Source: Burkholderiaceae bacterium (GTDB taxonomy: Bacteria > Pseudomonadota > Gammaproteobacteria > Burkholderiales > Burkholderiaceae_C). Taken from it: 49,233 nt of DNA. Shown here in pieces: positions 36,300-46,952 of the stretch. Every line of letters starts with the position of its first letter. Positions within the stretch are counted from its first letter, which is position 1. The notes beneath the pieces are model-generated. The model did not search any database, was not told where the DNA came from, and saw nothing but the letters and a program-made list of their open reading frames with translations. Location of the stretch: the NCBI GenBank assembly GCA_016790175.1, contig JAEUPI010000133.1:1-49233 (forward strand), given 5' to 3'. Both the position numbers and the translations under genes were made by a program.

Positions 36300-37262
36300 A
36301 TGGCCGCATGGATCGAACACCGGTCGGTCGACGTCGATGACCAGGCGGAAGCACTGGCGGGCTGGGAGCAGCGCTACGAGCAGTTGGGCCGCGGCGGTTT
36401 CCGCGGCATGGCCTGCCAGCTGCTGATGGCCGACGGCGTGCTGCTGCGCGAACAGACGAACCGCCAGCTGCGCGAGCAGATCCGGCCCCCGCGAGACCAT
36501 GTGGTGTTGGCCGTGCCGCTCGCGGTGGAGCCGGGCTCCGTGTTCGACGGCCGGCCGCTGGAGCGCGAATCGCTGATGGTGCTCAACGGCAGCGACGACT
36601 ACGAGCTGGTGTCGGCCGGCGAGCTCGACCTGGTGGGTCTGTCGGTGCACCGGCAGCTCGTCGAGCGTCTCGCGCCCGAGGAGGCCGAGTGGCTCGAAAG
36701 CGCGTCGCATCAGCGCGCGCTGCCGCTGGCTACCGAGGCGGCTGCGGCGATCCGCCAGCTGCTGCTCGCGCTGGTGGACGACGGCAACGGGATGCCCGCC
36801 GCACTGGATCGGCCCGATCGCGAGGCCGCGCTGCTGCGTGCGACGCTGACGCAGACGGTGCTGCTGGCGATGCGCGGCGCGCGCGCCGATGCCGTCCACG
36901 CGATCCCGCGCCGCGCCGACACGCGTCAGCGCGTGGTGCGCCGTGCGATCGACTACATGCGCGCGAACCTGCAGGCCGACATCGGCGTCGCCGAGATCTG
37001 CGCAGCGGCCTGCGCCAGCCGCCGCACCTTGCAGTACTGCTTCGAGGAGTTCATGCGCACCACGCCTCAGGCCTATCTGCGCGCGCTGCGGCTGAACGAG
37101 GCGCGGCGCGCGCTGAAAAACCACGCCAATCCAGCCATCACCGCGCTGGCCGGCGAGTTCGGCTTCTCGAGCCCGAGCCACTTCACCCGCCACTACCGCC
37201 TGATGTTCGACGAGGTCCCCTCCGAGACGCTGCGGCTGTATGGCGACGCGCTGCGCGAGTGA
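36300..37262 (+). CDS. AraC-family transcriptional regulator
   Basis: 320 residues. The N-terminal effector part is not recognisable beyond PPRDHVVLAVPLAVEP, and the C-terminal AraC domain has the helix-turn-helices IGVAEICAAACASRRTLQYCFEEF and ITALAGEFGFSSPSHFTRHYRLMF. The YFEE/TPQAYLRALRLNEARRAL stretch resembles the EutR-like group. The ATG follows directly after the stop of the YCF48-like gene and the acyl-CoA synthetase follows 12 bases later, so the regulator sits inside the operon it probably controls. Confidence 0.88.
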   Translation: MAAWIEHRSVDVDDQAEALAGWEQRYEQLGRGGFRGMACQLLMADGVLLREQTNRQLREQIRPPRDHVVLAVPLAVEPGSVFDGRPLERESLMVLNGSDDYELVSAGELDLVGLSVHRQLVERLAPEEAEWLESASHQRALPLATEAAAAIRQLLLALVDDGNGMPAALDRPDREAALLRATLTQTVLLAMRGARADAVHAIPRRADTRQRVVRRAIDYMRANLQADIGVAEICAAACASRRTLQYCFEEFMRTTPQAYLRALRLNEARRALKNHANPAITALAGEFGFSSPSHFTRHYRLMFDEVPSETLRLYGDALRE

Positions 37263-37274
37263 CAGGAGGAGACC

Positions 37275-38960
<1,686 letters not shown>

Positions 38961-38985: not shown

Positions 38986-39630
38986 ATGGCAAAGGCCGCG
39001 ATCCCACGGCGTCGCGTGATCGGCAGCGCGGTCGGGCTGCTCACGCTGGGCGCGCTCGGTACGCAGCGCCTGCGTGCCGAGCGCAGTCTGCCACGCGACG
39101 ACCGTGCGATCCGCCCGCCCGGCGCGGTGGCTGAAGCGTTGTTCCTGGCTGCTTGCGTGCGCTGCGGTCTGTGCGTGCAGGCCTGCCCGTTCGACACGCT
39201 CAAGCTCAGTACCGGCAAAGGCGATTCGCCGGTGGCTGCCGGCACGCCGTACTTCCATGCCCGCGACGTGCCGTGCGAGATGTGCGAGAGCATTCCGTGC
39301 CAGCGCGCCTGCCCCACCGGCGCGCTGGTGAGCACGCTGGCCGACATCGACGACGCGCGCATGGGTGTGGCGTGGCTGAGCTCTCCGGAAGGTTGCTACA
39401 GCTTCATCGGCGCGGCGCGCTGCGACAGCTGCTGGCGCGCCTGCCCGCTGCAAGACAGCGCGATCACGATGCAGCAGGGCCGCACGCGCCTGGGCGGCCG
39501 CTTCACGCCGACCGTGAACGACCAGGTCTGCACCGGCTGCGGCCTGTGCGAGAAGGCCTGCATCGCGGTGGAGCCGGCCATCACCGTGAAGGCCTCGCGC
39601 GATGGTCAACCGGCGCCCCACCACGCCTGA
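38986..39630 (+). CDS. mauM: MauM/NapG ferredoxin-type protein
   Basis: 214 residues with a Tat-like leader (AAIPRRRVIGSAVGLLTLGAL) and four [4Fe-4S] cysteine clusters: CVRCGLCVQACPF, CEMCESIPCQRACPTG, CDSCWRACPL and CTGCGLCEKACI. MauM and MauN are accessory electron carriers of methylamine utilisation; NapG/NapH are the homologues in nitrate reduction. No nap genes are nearby, so association with the TTQ enzyme 8 kb upstream is the reasonable reading. It overlaps mauN by 29 bases. Confidence 0.85.
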   Translation: MAKAAIPRRRVIGSAVGLLTLGALGTQRLRAERSLPRDDRAIRPPGAVAEALFLAACVRCGLCVQACPFDTLKLSTGKGDSPVAAGTPYFHARDVPCEMCESIPCQRACPTGALVSTLADIDDARMGVAWLSSPEGCYSFIGAARCDSCWRACPLQDSAITMQQGRTRLGGRFTPTVNDQVCTGCGLCEKACIAVEPAITVKASRDGQPAPHHA

Positions 39631-40561
39631 GGCCGCGCCTGAGGCCAAACCAGGAGCCACGCACGCGGCGCCCGCGCCAGTGGCGGCGCCTTCGGTGGCG
39701 CAACACCCGCGCGGGCGCATCCGCCGGCTGTGGCGGCGCTCGCGCTGGCTGATCGCACGCCGGCTCGTGCAGGTGGGCTTGCTCGCGGCATTTGCGAGCG
39801 GGCCCTGGTGGGGCGTGCCCGTGGCCTCGGGCACGCTGGCCGCCAGCGAGTGGTTCGGCGTGCTGACGCTGGCCGATCCGCTGGTGGCCCTGCAGGCGCT
39901 GCTGGCCGGGCACACGCTGGCCGCCGCCGGCCTGATCGGCGCCGGGCTGGTTGCGGCGTTCTATGCGCTGCTGGCCGGTCGGCTGTACTGCGGCTGGGTC
40001 TGCCCGATCAACCTCGTGACCGATGCCGCCGAGGCACTGCGCCGCCGGCTGGGGCTCGGCAACCTGGCGCTGCTGCGCGCCGACCGGCGAGCGCGCAACG
40101 CCGTGCTGTTGGTGGTGCTGCTGGCCAGCGCCGCCGGCGGCATCGTGGCCTGGGAGATGCTGAACCCGATCACGCTCGCGATGCGCGCGCTCGTCTTCGG
40201 TGCCTGGAGCGCCGGGCTCGTCGCGGTGGTGGCCGTGCTCGTGTGCGACCTGGTCGTGCTGCGGCACGGTTGGTGCGGACACCTCTGTCCGGTGGGTGCG
40301 TTCTACGGCTGGCTCGGGCGGTTCGGCCGGCTGAGCGTGCAGGCCACACGGGCCGACGCGTGCACACGCTGCGGCGACTGTTATGCCGTCTGCCCCGAAC
40401 CGCACGTGATCGTGCCGGTGCTGCGGCCGGGCACGACCGTGGTGGCGATCACCGATGCCGACTGCCTGCGCTGCGGCCGCTGCATCGACCATTGCGACGA
40501 GGATGTGTTCGCGCTGCGCTGGGCCATGGTCACCCCGACACGATCGCCCGGCGTTTGCTAG
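39602..40561 (+). CDS. mauN: MauN/NapH ferredoxin-type membrane protein
   Basis: 319 residues with about four hydrophobic helices after a Pro/Ala-rich N-terminus. LYCGWVCPINLVTDAAEALRRRLGL and VLRHGWCGHLCPVGAFYGWLGRFG are the two CxxxCP loops of the NapH/MauN family. The C-terminal cytoplasmic part has two [4Fe-4S] sets, CTRCGDCYAVCPEP and CLRCGRCIDHC. It likely passes electrons from the quinol pool to MauM during TTQ maturation. Start ATG 39602 lies inside mauM. No MauG-type dihaem enzyme is in the window. Confidence 0.87.
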   Translation: MVNRRPTTPEAAPEAKPGATHAAPAPVAAPSVAQHPRGRIRRLWRRSRWLIARRLVQVGLLAAFASGPWWGVPVASGTLAASEWFGVLTLADPLVALQALLAGHTLAAAGLIGAGLVAAFYALLAGRLYCGWVCPINLVTDAAEALRRRLGLGNLALLRADRRARNAVLLVVLLASAAGGIVAWEMLNPITLAMRALVFGAWSAGLVAVVAVLVCDLVVLRHGWCGHLCPVGAFYGWLGRFGRLSVQATRADACTRCGDCYAVCPEPHVIVPVLRPGTTVVAITDADCLRCGRCIDHCDEDVFALRWAMVTPTRSPGVC

Positions 40562-40590: not shown

Positions 40591-41598
40591 ATGGACCCCC
40601 GCCCGACACCCAGCACCCTACCGCCCGGTGCGACGCCGCTGGGCGCGCAGGGCTGCTGGTTCTGGTCGGCCCAGGCGAACGATGTGGACACCCTCGCGCG
40701 CGCGCAGCCATGGTGGCACCTGCATTACGAGCAGCTCTCGCCCGGTACGTTCGATGGTCATGTGCGCCACGCCCAGCTGCCGGGCCTGCGGCTCGTGGAG
40801 GAGTCCTCCGGCCGCGCGCTGCGCCAGCGGGGCGACCTCGGGCACGACAGCTATGGCTTCGCGATGCCGCTCAAGCCCGCCGCGGCGGCCATCTTCAACG
40901 GCCAGCGCACCCCGCACCACGCCATCATGGTCGGCCGCAGCGACGAGCTCGATCTGTGCACCCCCGACGACTTCGCGCTGATCGGTGCGGTGGTCGACCG
41001 CAGCCTGCTCGCGCCGTTGTGGGAGCGCATGTACCAGAAGCCGCTCGCGCGCTGGCTCGAGCAGCAGCTCGTGGTGCCGGCGCGGCCCGCGGCGGCCGAT
41101 GCCTTGCGCGCGCTGCATCTCGAGGCCATGGCGCGCGTGCACGCGGCCGATGTGCCGCTGACCGAGTCGACGGCGCTGCTGCAGTTGCGCGACGCGATCC
41201 TGATCGAATGGATCGAGACGCTGCCCGAATCGGTGGATACCTCCGAGCTGCCGACCGCAGCGGCGCGCAAGCGCATCGTCGACCGCGCCTGCGCGCTGAT
41301 GCTGTCGGCGCCCGACGAGCCGCTGTCGATGCTCGAGGTCTGCCGGCGCATCGGCACCAGCCGGCGCAAGCTCAACTACTGCTTCCAGGATGTGCTCGGC
41401 ACCAGCCCGGTGAAGTACCTGCGCGCCGTGCGCCTGAACGGCGTGCGCCGCGAACTGCGAGGCGGCAAGGCCGCGGTGCAGGACATTGCCGCGCGCTGGG
41501 GCTTCTGGCACCTGGGCCAGTTCTCGCTCGACTACAAGCGCCAGTTCGGCGAACTGCCGTCGACGACGCTGAGGGCTGCTCGCGCCGCCACCGGCTGA
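40591..41598 (+). CDS. AraC-family transcriptional regulator (EutR-like)
   Basis: 335 residues. Effector domain of about 230 residues (WWHLHYEQLSPGTFDGHVRHAQLPGLRLVEES, then TPDDFALIGAVVDRSLL) and a C-terminal AraC domain with MLEVCRRIGTSRRKLNYCFQDVLGTSP and IAARWGFWHLGQFSLDYKRQF. HLGQFSLDYKRQFGELPSTTL is characteristic of EutR-like activators. It follows mauN by 29 bases and precedes the binding-protein gene. A dyad in the intergenic region downstream of it is a plausible site for control of the transporter-dimethylformamidase operon. Confidence 0.9.
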   Translation: MDPRPTPSTLPPGATPLGAQGCWFWSAQANDVDTLARAQPWWHLHYEQLSPGTFDGHVRHAQLPGLRLVEESSGRALRQRGDLGHDSYGFAMPLKPAAAAIFNGQRTPHHAIMVGRSDELDLCTPDDFALIGAVVDRSLLAPLWERMYQKPLARWLEQQLVVPARPAAADALRALHLEAMARVHAADVPLTESTALLQLRDAILIEWIETLPESVDTSELPTAAARKRIVDRACALMLSAPDEPLSMLEVCRRIGTSRRKLNYCFQDVLGTSPVKYLRAVRLNGVRRELRGGKAAVQDIAARWGFWHLGQFSLDYKRQFGELPSTTLRAARAATG

Positions 41599-41749: not shown

Positions 41750-43024
41750 ATGTCCCACACCGCCCTGCCGCGCCGCGGCGCGTTGAAGATCGTCGCGGCC
41801 ACGCCCGCATTGCTGAGCCCGTTGGCACTGTGGGCTCAGCCCAAACCCATCATGATCGGCCTGCCGCTCGCGCAGAGCGGCCCGGCCGGTGTGGCCGACC
41901 ACGCCGACTTCCTCAATGGCGCCAAGCTGGCGGTCAAGGAGGTCAACGCCGCGGGCGGCGTGAAGGGTCGCCCGATCGAACTCAAGGTGTTCGACCTCGA
42001 CATGATGACGCCCGAGGGCAACCAGGCCAGCTTTCGCAAGGTGGTCGATGCGAAGGTGCATGCGATCGGCTCGCCGTTCACCATCATCCCGGTGCCGGCG
42101 ATGGAGGCCGCGGCGCGCTACGGTGCACCGTACCTGAACGGCAACACGTCGATCGTCACGGTCACCGAGGTCAAGAAGAACCCGAAGAAGTACGCCCACA
42201 TGTTCCAGATGGACCCGGACGAGACGTACTACGGGGCCGGCTTCCCGATCTTCCTTGAGCAGCTGCAGGCCAGCGGCGCCTGGAAGCCCACCAACAACAA
42301 GGTGCACATCGTCACCGAGCAGCTCGCCTACACGCAGAACATCACCAAGAGCGCGCAGGAGCACTTCAAGAAGCGCGGCAAGTTCGAGGTCGTGAAGGTC
42401 ACCAACATCCAGTTCCCGGTGCAGGACTGGGGCCCCGTGCTGCAGGACCTGAAGGCCACCGGTGCCGGCGTGCTCATGATCAACCACTGGGTCGCCGCCG
42501 AGCTCGCTGCGTTCAGCAAGCAGTTCGCCGCCAACCCGGTGCCGGGCGCGCTGGTGTACCTGCAGTACGGCCCGTCGCAGCCCGAGTACCTCACGCTCGC
42601 CGGCCCGGCCGCCGAGGGCTTCATCTGGGGCACGGTGTACGGCGTGTATGCCGACAAGCAGGGCCAGGCCTTCCGCGACAAGTACAAGACCGAGTACCTG
42701 AAGAACGGCGGCGTGATGGGCATGGCCTACACCGGCGGCGGCTACGACACGGTGCACCTGCTGGCCAAGGTGTGGGCCAAGGTCGAGCCGGAGAACTTCG
42801 CCGCGGTGAATGCCGAGCTGAAGAAGACCACCTACCGCGGTGTGAACGGCTTCTACCGCTTCGACAACGCCGAGCAGGCGCCGCTGCACTATCCGCTGCA
42901 GACCAGCAAGCTCGAGGAGGGCATGGCGCACCTGTTCGTGCAGGTGCAGGGCGGCCAGCACCGCATCATCTCGCCCGATGCGGTGAAGGAGGTCGGCTTC
43001 AAGCCGGCGCCGTGGATGAAGTGA
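41750..43024 (+). CDS. ABC transporter substrate-binding protein (branched-chain/amide type)
   Basis: 424 residues. The leader (LPRRGALKIVAATPALLSPLALWAQ) has a twin Arg and a signal-peptidase site near WAQ. Type I periplasmic-binding fold (Peripla_BP_6): PIMIGLPLAQSGPAGVADHADFLNGAKLAVKEVNAAGGVKGRPIELKVFD, PYLNGNTSIVTVTEV, KVHIVTEQ and VLMINHWVAAEL. Binding proteins of this type also serve urea and short-chain amide transporters. The linked dimethylformamidase suggests an amide or amine ligand. Head gene of a six-gene run; GAGGAGGAG precedes the ATG. Confidence 0.92.
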   Translation: MSHTALPRRGALKIVAATPALLSPLALWAQPKPIMIGLPLAQSGPAGVADHADFLNGAKLAVKEVNAAGGVKGRPIELKVFDLDMMTPEGNQASFRKVVDAKVHAIGSPFTIIPVPAMEAAARYGAPYLNGNTSIVTVTEVKKNPKKYAHMFQMDPDETYYGAGFPIFLEQLQASGAWKPTNNKVHIVTEQLAYTQNITKSAQEHFKKRGKFEVVKVTNIQFPVQDWGPVLQDLKATGAGVLMINHWVAAELAAFSKQFAANPVPGALVYLQYGPSQPEYLTLAGPAAEGFIWGTVYGVYADKQGQAFRDKYKTEYLKNGGVMGMAYTGGGYDTVHLLAKVWAKVEPENFAAVNAELKKTTYRGVNGFYRFDNAEQAPLHYPLQTSKLEEGMAHLFVQVQGGQHRIISPDAVKEVGFKPAPWMK

Positions 43025-43080: not shown

Positions 43081-43803
43081 ATGGCTGAGCCGCTGTTTGC
43101 CTGCCGCGACGTGGCCATGGATTTCGGCACGCGCCGCGTGCTCGAGGGCGTGTCGCTCGCCGCGCATGCGGGCGAGGTGCTGGGCGTCGTCGGCCCCAAC
43201 GGCGCGGGCAAGACCACGCTGTTCGAGATCCTGAGCGGCCGGCTGCGGCCCGCCACGGGGCAGGTGCTGTTCGACGGCATCGACGTCACCGCCGAGCCGA
43301 TCCATCTGCGCGCGCGCCGCGGCATCGCGCGCACCTACCAGAGCCCGGTGGTGCCCGAGGCGCTCGCGGTGGGCGAGGTGCTGAAGGCCGCGCGGCAGGC
43401 CTATGCGCCCTACCTCACGGCGCACCACGCCGAGTGGGCGGCGTCGCGCGTGGGCCTCACGGTGCCGCACGACGTCGTGGCCGGCTCGCTCGGCACGCTC
43501 GACCGCCGGCGCCTGCTGCTGGCCTGCCTGCTGATGCGCCGGCCGCGCGTGCTGCTGATGGACGAGCCCGCGGCCGGGCTGATCGATGCCGAGGTCGACG
43601 TGATCGACGGCATCGTCGACACGCTCGCGCGTGAGTTGAATGTCGCGGTGCTGCTCGTCGAACACCGGCTCGAGCTGCTGGCCTCCATCGCCGACCGCGT
43701 GCTGGTGCTCGACGCCGGCCGGCCGATCGCCGAGGGCTCGCCGCACCGCGTGTTCGACGAGCCGCAGGTGCGCGCGGCGTACTTCGAGGCCGACCCCGCA
43801 TGA
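43081..43803 (+). CDS. ABC transporter ATPase, LivG type
   Basis: 240 residues. Walker A is GVVGPNGAGKTTLFEILSG, the Q-loop is YQSPVVPEALAVGEVL, Walker B is VLLMDEPAAGL and the switch His is VEHRLELL. The ABC signature is degenerate: GSLGTLDRRRLLLA in place of LSGGQ-type, while other motifs are intact. It overlaps the next ATPase by 4 bases (ATGA). It energises the importer as the LivG-type partner; the weakened signature may mean one consensus ATP site comes from the other subunit. Confidence 0.92.
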   Translation: MAEPLFACRDVAMDFGTRRVLEGVSLAAHAGEVLGVVGPNGAGKTTLFEILSGRLRPATGQVLFDGIDVTAEPIHLRARRGIARTYQSPVVPEALAVGEVLKAARQAYAPYLTAHHAEWAASRVGLTVPHDVVAGSLGTLDRRRLLLACLLMRRPRVLLMDEPAAGLIDAEVDVIDGIVDTLARELNVAVLLVEHRLELLASIADRVLVLDAGRPIAEGSPHRVFDEPQVRAAYFEADPA

Positions 43804-44531
43804 CGCTCGCCCTCGCCGAATCGCCCTCGGCCGCCGACGCGGCATCGGCCGCGCCCGAGGTGCTGCACATCGCCGGGCTCTCGGCCGGCTATGGCCCGCT
43901 GACGGTGCTGCACGACCTCGACCTCGTGGTGCGCGCCGGCGAGCGCCTCGCGCTGGTCGGCCTGAACGGCCACGGCAAGACGACGCTGTTTCGCGCCATC
44001 AGCGGCCTCACCGGCTGGCAACGCGGCTCGATCCGGCTGCGCGGCCGCGAGGTCGGCGGCGAGCGCACCGAAGGCCCCGGCCGCCACACGCACCGCATCG
44101 TGCGCCTGGGCCTTGCGCACATGCCGCAGGGCGACGCGATCTTTCCCGGCCTCACGGTGGCGCAGCACCTCGACGTCGGCGCCTATACCGCGGCCGCGTG
44201 GCGTGCCCGGCGCCAGCGGCGCGATCAGCTGCTCGAGGTGTTTGCGCCCTTGAGGCCGCTGCTCGGCGCAGTGGCCGGCACGCTGTCGGGCGGCGAGCGG
44301 CGCATGGTGTCGCTGGCGCGCGGGCTGATGGCCGATGCCGTGCTCTACCTCGTCGACGAACCCTCGCTCGGCCTGGCGCCGATCGTCAGCATCGGCGTGG
44401 TCGACGCGCTGATGAAGATCGACCTCGGCGCCGGCGCGATGGTGATCGCCGAGCAGAACCTGTCGTTGCTCGCCGGCCGGGTCGATCGCGTGCTGAACAT
44501 GCATGCCGGTCGCATCAAGGGCAACCAGTAG
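43800..44531 (+). CDS. ABC transporter ATPase, LivF type
   Basis: 243 residues. Walker A reads GLNGHGKTT, where the usual Ala is His; the catalytic Gly-Lys-Thr is intact. Q-loop MPQGDAIFPGLTVAQHL, signature TLSGGERRMVSLARGL, Walker B LYLVDEPSLGLAPI and switch region IAEQNLSLL. This is the LivF-like partner, with a full signature motif, so it complements the degenerate LivG-type subunit. The LivH-type permease gene follows 2 bases after the stop. Confidence 0.92.
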   Translation: MTLALAESPSAADAASAAPEVLHIAGLSAGYGPLTVLHDLDLVVRAGERLALVGLNGHGKTTLFRAISGLTGWQRGSIRLRGREVGGERTEGPGRHTHRIVRLGLAHMPQGDAIFPGLTVAQHLDVGAYTAAAWRARRQRRDQLLEVFAPLRPLLGAVAGTLSGGERRMVSLARGLMADAVLYLVDEPSLGLAPIVSIGVVDALMKIDLGAGAMVIAEQNLSLLAGRVDRVLNMHAGRIKGNQ

Positions 44532-45416: not shown

Positions 45417-46952
45417 GTGAGCACCACGCCTCGCATGTATCTGGTCGGCCGCTGGCGCTGGTGGCCGCACCTGCGCGCGCACGGCGCGAAGCTGTGGACG
45501 CGCTGGCGCTGGCCCGGCACGCGGCGCCATGTGCTGCACCTGCGCGGCCACTACAACCCGAAGAGCCTCGGCGCCGAACTCAAGGTGGTGGACAAGCGGC
45601 CGATCGCCTGGGTCGTGGGCCTCGTGCTGCTGGCCGTCGTGCCGCCGCTGCTGGGCGTGGCGCTCGACTCGACCAACCTGCTCGCCGCCGCCGCGGTGTT
45701 CGCGCTCTATGCGGCGATCAACCTGGTGTGGATGCTGGTGATCGGCACCGCGGGTATCTTCTCGCTGGCCACGCTGGCCATCGTCGGCTCGGCCGCCTAT
45801 GCCGGCGCGTGGCTGTCGATCGAATACGGCCTGCCGTGGTGGGGCATGGTCGGCGTGGGCACGGTGGTCGGTGCGGCGTTCGGCGCGCTGGTGGCGATAC
45901 CGGCGAACCGGCTCGAGGGCTTCTACTACGCGCTGCTGACGCTCGGGCTGGTGGAGATGCTGCGCGTGTCGGTGGTGCAGTCGCGCGCGCTCGGCTCGGC
46001 CACCGGCGGCCTGTTCGGCGCCGACACCTACGTGCCCGATGCCTTCGACGAGACGCAGGCGCTGGTGTTCGCCTATGCCTGCTGCTTCGTGGTGATGCTG
46101 CTGGCGCTGGCGCTGTACCGCTTCGTCAACGGCAACCGGCTCGGGCGCATCCTGCGTTGCGCGCCCGAGAAGCACGAGGCGTTCGCCGAGGCCTGCGGCA
46201 TGGACGTGCGGCGTGCGCGCACCCACGTGTTCCTGATCTCGTCGGCTGCGCTCGGTGCGATCGGCGGCTTCTATGCCGCCCACTTCAAGGGCGCGAGCCC
46301 GTCGCTGTTCGCGATCGACCAGCTGATGCTGCTGATGGCGATGATCGTCATCGGCGGCCTCGGTCGCGCCGAGGGCGCGGTGGTCGGCACGCTGCTGGTG
46401 GTGGCGATCGACAAGCTGCTGGTCGACCTGGGGCCGATGCGGCTGGTGCTGATCGGCGCGCTGATGCTGGCCACGGTGCTGTTCACGCGCAACGGCCTGT
46501 TCGGCATCCGCCAGCAGTGGCGCGACTTCCGCCGCAAGCGCGCCGCCCAGGCGCGCGCGGCCCGCACCGAAAAAGGAGGCGAGTTCATGCCCGAGGAAGC
46601 CATCGCGATCCACGACAAGGCGCAGATCGCGTTCCGCCGCTTCGACAAGCGCCACCGCGACGCGCTGAAGCCGCTGGTGCGGCCCGACCTGATCGAGGAG
46701 CACCGGCGCGACCCCAGCGGCATGCGCCACAGCGACGAGCTGATGCGGCTGCTGGTGTACTTCCGCCACGCCTCGGTGGTCGACAAGTACGCGCTGCGCG
46801 TCGACGAACCCTTCAAGCGCTACCGGCTGATCGCGCTGTCAGGCGTGCGCGGCGTGCCGCCCCGGCTGGTGGACGACCGCGTGTACGGCTCGCTGCCCGA
46901 AGCCTTCCACGCGGTGTTCCTCAAGCGCTGCCAGGACCTGCTCGAGTCGTAG
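45417..46952 (+). CDS. LivM-type ABC permease fused in frame to dimethylformamidase small subunit
   Basis: 511 codons from GTG 45417, with no stop until TAG at 46952. Residues 1-390 are a LivM-like permease: basic N-terminal tail, then about nine helices with LVWMLVIGTAGIFSLATLAIVGSAAYAGAW, FYYALLTLGLVEMLRV and GIGGFYAAHFKGASPS-type blocks. A charged tail (QQWRDFRRKRAAQ) follows. Residues 391-511 are the dimethylformamidase small (alpha) subunit. The junction GGEF-MPEEA has no stop in this frame and carries its own ribosome-binding site. Either a true fusion tethers the enzyme to the membrane, or the subunit is mostly made from the internal start. A one-base loss in the A5 run at 46570-46574 would instead send LivM to a TGA at 46666. 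Confidence 0.8.
   Translation: MSTTPRMYLVGRWRWWPHLRAHGAKLWTRWRWPGTRRHVLHLRGHYNPKSLGAELKVVDKRPIAWVVGLVLLAVVPPLLGVALDSTNLLAAAAVFALYAAINLVWMLVIGTAGIFSLATLAIVGSAAYAGAWLSIEYGLPWWGMVGVGTVVGAAFGALVAIPANRLEGFYYALLTLGLVEMLRVSVVQSRALGSATGGLFGADTYVPDAFDETQALVFAYACCFVVMLLALALYRFVNGNRLGRILRCAPEKHEAFAEACGMDVRRARTHVFLISSAALGAIGGFYAAHFKGASPSLFAIDQLMLLMAMIVIGGLGRAEGAVVGTLLVVAIDKLLVDLGPMRLVLIGALMLATVLFTRNGLFGIRQQWRDFRRKRAAQARAARTEKGGEFMPEEAIAIHDKAQIAFRRFDKRHRDALKPLVRPDLIEEHRRDPSGMRHSDELMRLLVYFRHASVVDKYALRVDEPFKRYRLIALSGVRGVPPRLVDDRVYGSLPEAFHAVFLKRCQDLLES
46572..46579 (+). promoter_or_regulatory. strong internal Shine-Dalgarno inside the permease-subunit frame
   Basis: AAAGGAGG, 7 bases before ATG 46587, is one of the best ribosome-binding sites in the window, and lies in the middle of an open frame. 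It implies that the dimethylformamidase small subunit is translated on its own as well as, or instead of, as a fusion. Confidence 0.7.
46587..46952 (+). CDS. dmfA1: N,N-dimethylformamidase small (alpha) subunit, internal start
   Basis: 121 residues, against about 130 in the Alcaligenes and Paracoccus enzymes. Shared segments: (L/I)EEHxxxPxGxRH, seen here as LIEEHRRDPSGMRHS; the YFRHA-type block; YRLIALSGVRGVPP (IREFGELPE in Alcaligenes) and the C-terminal EAFHAVFLKRCQDL (EAMHAVFLRRIEDV). The small subunit pairs with the large catalytic subunit. The ATG, in frame with the upstream permease, is preceded by AAAGGAGG. The large-subunit gene follows 12 bases after the stop, the usual dmfA1-dmfA2 order. 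Confidence 0.7.
   Translation: MPEEAIAIHDKAQIAFRRFDKRHRDALKPLVRPDLIEEHRRDPSGMRHSDELMRLLVYFRHASVVDKYALRVDEPFKRYRLIALSGVRGVPPRLVDDRVYGSLPEAFHAVFLKRCQDLLES

Follow-up and report, generated by a model that had tools for sequence, protein, structure and literature searches.

The locus described here raises the question of why the permease gene of an ABC importer runs, without any stop codon, into the small subunit of a dimethylformamidase (DMFase), and which proteins such a gene gives rise to. The window, i.e., the whole stretch of 49,233 nucleotides that was analysed, corresponds to the complete contig C167 of a 283-contig draft genome (82% complete), and the importer operon comprises its last genes (Table 1). 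As proposed in the initial annotation, permease and small subunit were found to share one open frame, which extends from a GTG at 45417 to a TAG at 46950-46952 and encodes 511 amino acids. The permease part matches the Pfam family BPD_transp_2 (residues 88-353, E 1.4e-24), and the last 121 residues (391-511, from ATG 46587) match the solved DMFase small subunit 6lvb_B, with an E value of 5.1e-9 when taken alone and of 5.3e-16 with a profile of the fusion. Among solved chains, this profile recovered the small subunit only and no chain with both halves. The linker behind the last membrane segment is strongly basic, as judged by a simple hydropathy scan. The junction carries the Shine-Dalgarno sequence AAAGGAGG 7 bases ahead of the ATG, as well as a run of five A residues at 46570-46574, both of which had been correctly pointed out at the outset; just 1% of synonymous versions of the window junction contain an equally strong site. 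Folding of the junction RNA was not unusually open (z 0.63) and no notable RNA structure was detected there. A single small-subunit match was found in the draft genome, and the downstream stretch beyond the contig end could hold a separate copy.

Table 1. Features of the importer operon and of the fused gene in the window
Feature	Position	Strand	Basis
AraC-type regulator gene, probable regulator, adjoins operon	40591..41598	+	HTH_18, E 5.6e-24
Periplasmic substrate-binding protein (Peripla_BP_6)	41750..43024	+	E 1.4e-35
LivG-type ATPase	43081..43803	+	ABC_tran, E 4.1e-24, and BCA_ABC_TP_C
LivF-type ATPase	43800..44531	+	ABC_tran, E 2.3e-25
LivH-type permease, 292 aa	44534..45412	+	frame located; served as query for relatives
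LivM-type permease, basic linker and DMFase small subunit in one gene	45417..46952	+	Pfam, 6lvb_B, 54 homologous fusions
Junction peptide EKGGE codons, residues 385-389	46569..46583	+	conserved in fusions
Internal Shine-Dalgarno AAAGGAGG, overlapping the K-G-G codons	46572..46579	+	duplex -11.6 kcal/mol
Predicted free DMFase small subunit, 121 aa, internal ATG 46587-46589	46587..46949	+	start codon conserved at site
DMFase large subunit, cut by contig end	46965..49233	+	6lvb_A, E 5e-185

The operon brings together a binding protein, whose closest solved structure is 3h5l (E 5e-53), two ATPases and two related permeases, the composition that defines ABC importers of the HAAT type (LivHMGF). The substrate class of this importer was left broad, since the fused permease scores far under the NCBIfam cut-offs for both LivM (70 bits; cut-off 366) and UrtC (58 bits; cut-off 296). 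The adjoining regulator is EutR-like, with a score under the curated cut-off. Just upstream of regulator and operon, NapG/MauM-like and NapH ferredoxin-type genes were found (38986-40561), preceded by an acyl-CoA synthetase-like frame identified by eye (37275-38960) and, before the latter, by a frame resembling the AraC-type regulator of the operon (about 36300-37259). At the other end, the small-subunit homologue adjoins a homologue of the large subunit, as in two-subunit DMFases. Residues Y405, Y446, H526 and E528 of this large subunit align with Y399, Y440, H519 and E521, so that the iron ligands (Y399, Y440, E521) and the catalytic histidine (H519) are all matched.

The initial annotation had suggested searching for the same fusion in related genomes, and this search yielded 54 further loci with the fusion in the same frame (53 besides the window in a main set of 54, plus L186), all with the junction peptide EKGGE-x-x-PEEA. 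All 39 aligned fusions contain EKGGE without any variation, and none of the 51 rows that entered the statistics lacks it. As far as the stretches extend, the genes follow the order binding protein, LivG, LivF, LivH, LivM-small subunit and large subunit; frames resembling LivH were encountered in 28 loci. Regulator-like frames also recur near the fused operons, differing by clade, and no conserved catabolic gene pointing to the substrate was recognized when the recurrent reading frames were inspected by eye. No relative of the fusion was found in the viral contigs searched. Small-subunit genes, fused or not, are present in a minority of genomes, as indicated by the numbers of matches in relatives (4 of 149, own genome included), in the class (10 of 369), in the phylum (7 of 397), in two families (26 of 295 and 12 of 246) and in one order (36 of 259). 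Matches were found in 36 plasmid records, 24 of which annotate the gene as a 'branched-chain amino acid ABC transporter permease', a label that conceals an enzyme subunit and can now be corrected.

Fusions were selected by their long open frame. Among short-frame small-subunit matches of at least 130 bits, six were second copies within fused operons, two (G262 and G1543) had no adjoining LivM and one (L126) was a fusion cut by a contig edge; none of them was a relative with a stop codon at the place where the window lacks it, the case that the initial annotation had foreseen as contrary to its reading. Fourteen unfused loci were used for comparison. Only in two of them (L184 and L185), both weak and distant, does an unfused small subunit directly follow a LivM-like gene, in another reading frame and with its start falling within a range from 11 bases ahead of the end of the LivM stop to 4 bases behind it. 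Both loci (L184:6554-10443 and L185:6599-11056) contain a distant LivG-LivF-LivH-LivM set, behind which the two DMFase subunits, small before large, are encoded by unfused genes; this arrangement may represent the state before fusion, a fusion that was split again or an assembly that arose independently. In the large-subunit tree, the unfused L015, L143/L144 and L184/L185 were placed among fused loci, several of them on long branches, so that the fusion may have arisen more than once.

Three other loci deserve mention. A haloarchaeal plasmid (L017:8839-11712) carries a DMFase-like pair whose small subunit, a 183-residue frame without any LivM match, is annotated as 'inner-membrane translocator'. 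The fused operon L012 sits on plasmid pMDW2 of Aminobacter sp. MDW-2, described in the excerpted text of PMC8292978 as a methomyl-degrading strain that uses methylamine; a link of this operon to methylated amides or carbamates is possible. L124 and L126, two contigs of one draft genome, are alike at 580 of 654 bases, either as recent duplicates or as a consequence of mixed strains.

To characterize the junction, every in-frame ATG, GTG and TTG of the aligned fusions was scored, a strong site being defined by a duplex of -10 kcal/mol or lower with the 16S tail. The scored rows comprise the 39 fusions for which the stretch read shows no small-subunit gene besides the fused one; L124, L141 and L182 were left out of the statistics because their contigs end. 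An in-frame start codon was found at the junction in all 39 rows (ATG or GTG in 38, TTG in one), although the residues at this position vary (ML in 22 rows, VM in nine, VV in four, and FM, IM, IV and PL in one each). This start is accompanied by a strong Shine-Dalgarno sequence in 32 rows, whereas such a combination occurs in at most one of the 39 at any other of the 521 columns. Weak sites (-7.1 to -7.7) were found in the other seven rows (L011, L013, L020, L105, L115, L117 and L172).

Codon choice at the junction was equally distinctive. The lysine is encoded by AAA in 31 of 39 rows, as opposed to 99 of 662 lysines elsewhere in the same genes, and the first glycine by GGC in only two of 39, as opposed to 1125 of 1709; at a conserved Ile-Gly-Gly, GGC is used in 35 of 39. 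When one row per 80%-identity group was retained, GGC was found in 0 of 19 (11.9 expected) and AAA in 15 of 19 (2.7 expected), and for neither codon was any of 1,000,000 simulations as extreme. The junction glycine codon has changed nine times on the tree, yet it is other than GGC in 37 of 39 rows. The codon background was taken from the gene alone; the outcome is the same with the entire open frame, which extends into the preceding gene in some loci. In single genes the synonymous-codon test is weak, with p values for start plus Shine-Dalgarno ranging from 0.002 to 0.65 in uncut rows that lack a separate gene. Selection acts on the nucleotides of the internal ribosome site, and the junction is dual-coding, with a conserved in-frame start and its ribosome site located at the domain border, as in genes with two products. 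The alternative that the Shine-Dalgarno-like letters are dictated by the peptide was ruled out by the synonymous-codon tests over the set.

A separate small-subunit gene was found in 12 of the fused operons, located either directly after the fusion (L014, L123, L127, L134, L139 and L178) or after the first large-subunit gene (L120, L126, L129, L130, L132 and L181). In none of these 12 rows is a start combined with a strong Shine-Dalgarno sequence; the first glycine is GGC in all 12 and the lysine AAG in 11. An ATG is retained in four of the 12 and a TTG in L123, and a strong Shine-Dalgarno without start is present in L014. Five genomes harbour operons of both kinds, each operon fitting its own kind (L119/L120; L125/L123 and L126; L128/L127; L131/L130; L135/L134). 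Since operons in which a separate gene encodes the small subunit have lost the internal site, production of the free subunit from the other fusions is strongly suggested. Taken together, comparison of the loci indicates that one conserved gene very probably yields both a tethered and a free small subunit.

A prediction recorded before ten new loci were read was largely borne out. Two of them had been predicted to lack the site: L178 lacks both site and start, and L181 lacks the site and keeps an ATG. Eight had been predicted to carry it, and a start codon was found in all eight and a strong site in seven; by the strict score six of the eight agree, because L180 uses TTG and the site of L172 is weak. 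As for the loci whose contigs end, L124 and L141 combine a weak site with the lack of a start and would be exceptions should they have no separate copy, and in L182 start and strong site are both present. The Fisher values for the association (6e-6 and 3e-7) overstate it, since just three gains or losses of the separate copy were counted on the tree, and the independent pairs (one on supported branches, three on all) are fewer than the six from which the sign test can reach 0.05.

Two other readings of the conserved junction have to be weighed against this. In the first, only the fused protein is made, and the Shine-Dalgarno-like codons serve to slow down ribosomes so that the membrane domain inserts before the soluble domain folds. 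The site does lie just after the membrane part, and codons of this type have been proposed to pause ribosomes. However, a start codon is kept at the right distance in every one of the 39 rows without a separate gene even as the residues change, and start plus strong site are missing in all 12 rows with a separate gene despite the same kind of membrane part, which renders this explanation improbable.

According to the second, which is slightly less probable still, function depends on the free subunit, and the fusion, left behind when a stop codon was lost, is simply tolerated, with a tethered domain devoid of any role. The strength of the internal site in the window is consistent with this, as is the fact that the small subunit of the known DMFase is functional as a free protein (excerpted text of PMC7686228). 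Nevertheless, fusion and linker peptide are maintained in all 12 operons with a separate subunit (fusions having been chosen by their open frame), and in each of the eight pairs compared, conservation is higher for the fused domain than for the separate copy. Identities of fused and separate domains are 78% vs 45% for L134/L139, 89% vs 54% for L127/L134 and 91% vs 62% for L014/L178, the smallest gap being that of L120/L181 (61% vs 57%). The fused domain thus appears to be more than a mere by-product. In the tree, the separate copies cluster together within the fused domains (support 83/68) and are therefore probably derived from them. In the six operons where the separate gene directly follows the fusion, its product diverges much faster than the fused domain.

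An error of sequencing or assembly at the A5 run, a concern for any single contig of a 283-contig draft, could also make a stop codon disappear. This explanation is refuted by 54 other loci in which the junction is likewise in frame; some of these belong to genomes assembled as one contig (G978, G919) or to plasmid records labelled as complete sequences. The resequencing of the run initially recommended is unnecessary. The initial annotation had offered two alternatives, channelling of substrate at the point of entry by the tethered subunit, or a permease that lost its stop with fused and free subunits both made. The second is the better one with regard to its products, for which codon choice and loss of the site beside a separate gene both argue, and its view of the junction as a lesion gives way to that of a conserved arrangement.

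The large subunits provide a further line of comparison. Seven operons carry two large-subunit genes (L012, L120, L126, L129, L130, L132 and L181), and in all seven one copy has the five active-site residues checked and the other is without one or two of them: E521A in L012, Y440C in L120 and L126, and Y399F or L together with H519R in L129, L130, L132 and L181. None of the checked residues is missing from the 44 large subunits that occur singly in fused operons (58 large subunits were checked in all). In the Paracoccus enzyme, the replacements Y440A, E521A and H519A lead to inactivity (excerpted text of PMC7686228), and the altered copies are candidate pseudo-enzyme subunits. The two large subunits of L012 are each other's nearest relatives (84% identical), indicating that active-site loss arose at least twice; the lesions are of three kinds. 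In L012 the internal start is retained and a separate small-subunit gene is absent, in line with the two-product model. Overall, the paired copies suggest an asymmetric, importer-docked enzyme.

How the two products might be used can be outlined as follows. Full-length translation would yield a LivM permease subunit bearing the DMFase small subunit at its C-terminus, probably in the cytoplasm given the strongly basic linker and the positive-inside rule, and initiation at the internal AAAGGAGG-ATG would yield the same small subunit in free form. A Liv-type importer contains one LivM per complex, as a LivH-LivM pair. The known DMFase is an alpha2beta2 enzyme whose large subunit alone is inactive and whose small subunit helps to form the active-site entrance (excerpted text of PMC7686228). 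With one LivM and an enzyme of this composition, one small subunit would be docked per importer and the second would have to come free, which would account for both forms being kept. The enzyme would lie beneath the importer, with the tethered small subunit at the active-site entrance facing the incoming amide, an arrangement that might channel the substrate as it enters. Docking of the enzyme on the importer is put forward tentatively. The same scheme would explain why a separate gene can substitute for the internal start and why second large subunits can lose their active site. The broadest proposal, no firmer than docking itself, is an import-and-cleave machine, an ABC importer carrying half an amidohydrolase on its permease, in which the enzyme would be obligatorily asymmetric, one of its small subunits being tethered and the other free; derived forms would in addition pair an active with an inactive large subunit. 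This asymmetry would stem from the two starts of a single gene, and on more than one occasion gene duplication would have taken their place. If so, importer and catabolic enzyme would physically constitute one machine, in which an internal ribosome site within a single gene sets the ratio of docked to free subunits. Natural variants exist for each step, namely the internal start, the separate small subunit and the second large subunit without active site, making the coupling of transport and catalysis directly testable across the family.

Internal starts yielding a C-terminal domain and DMFases as two-subunit enzymes are already known; among the matches listed in the open-access literature on DMFase, transporter-enzyme fusions and internal starts, no LivM-DMFase fusion was found. 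The importer shares with LivHMGF-type (HAAT) systems the binding protein, two ATPases, two permeases and the BPD_transp_2 domain, but scores far under the cut-offs of the LivM and UrtC models. Small and large subunits are homologous to DmfA1-DmfA2 of the Paracoccus DMFase (PDB 6lvb; excerpted text of PMC7686228 and PMC4543880), with which the window also shares the small-subunit gene directly before the large one, the iron ligands and the catalytic histidine. In Paracoccus, however, the small subunit is free and the genes follow a LuxR-type activator, with no transporter in the stretch shown in those sources, whereas here the small subunit is fused to LivM within an importer operon. The acetamiprid amidase AceAB likewise comprises two subunits similar in sequence to DMFase and showed no activity on DMF, and no importer fusion is mentioned in the excerpted text (PMC11573777); as this relative did not act on DMF, the substrate here need not be DMF. 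With regard to expression, a close parallel is found in SctQ/SpaO/HrcQ of type III secretion, where, in the excerpted text of PMC8553256, one gene gives rise to the full-length protein and, from an internal Shine-Dalgarno and ATG, to its C-terminal domain, both products joining one complex; in its Table 1, HrcQa and HrcQb of one species are separate proteins. These proteins are unrelated to the fusion and include no enzyme subunit, whereas in the system described here the long form is a permease and the predicted short form a subunit of an enzyme.
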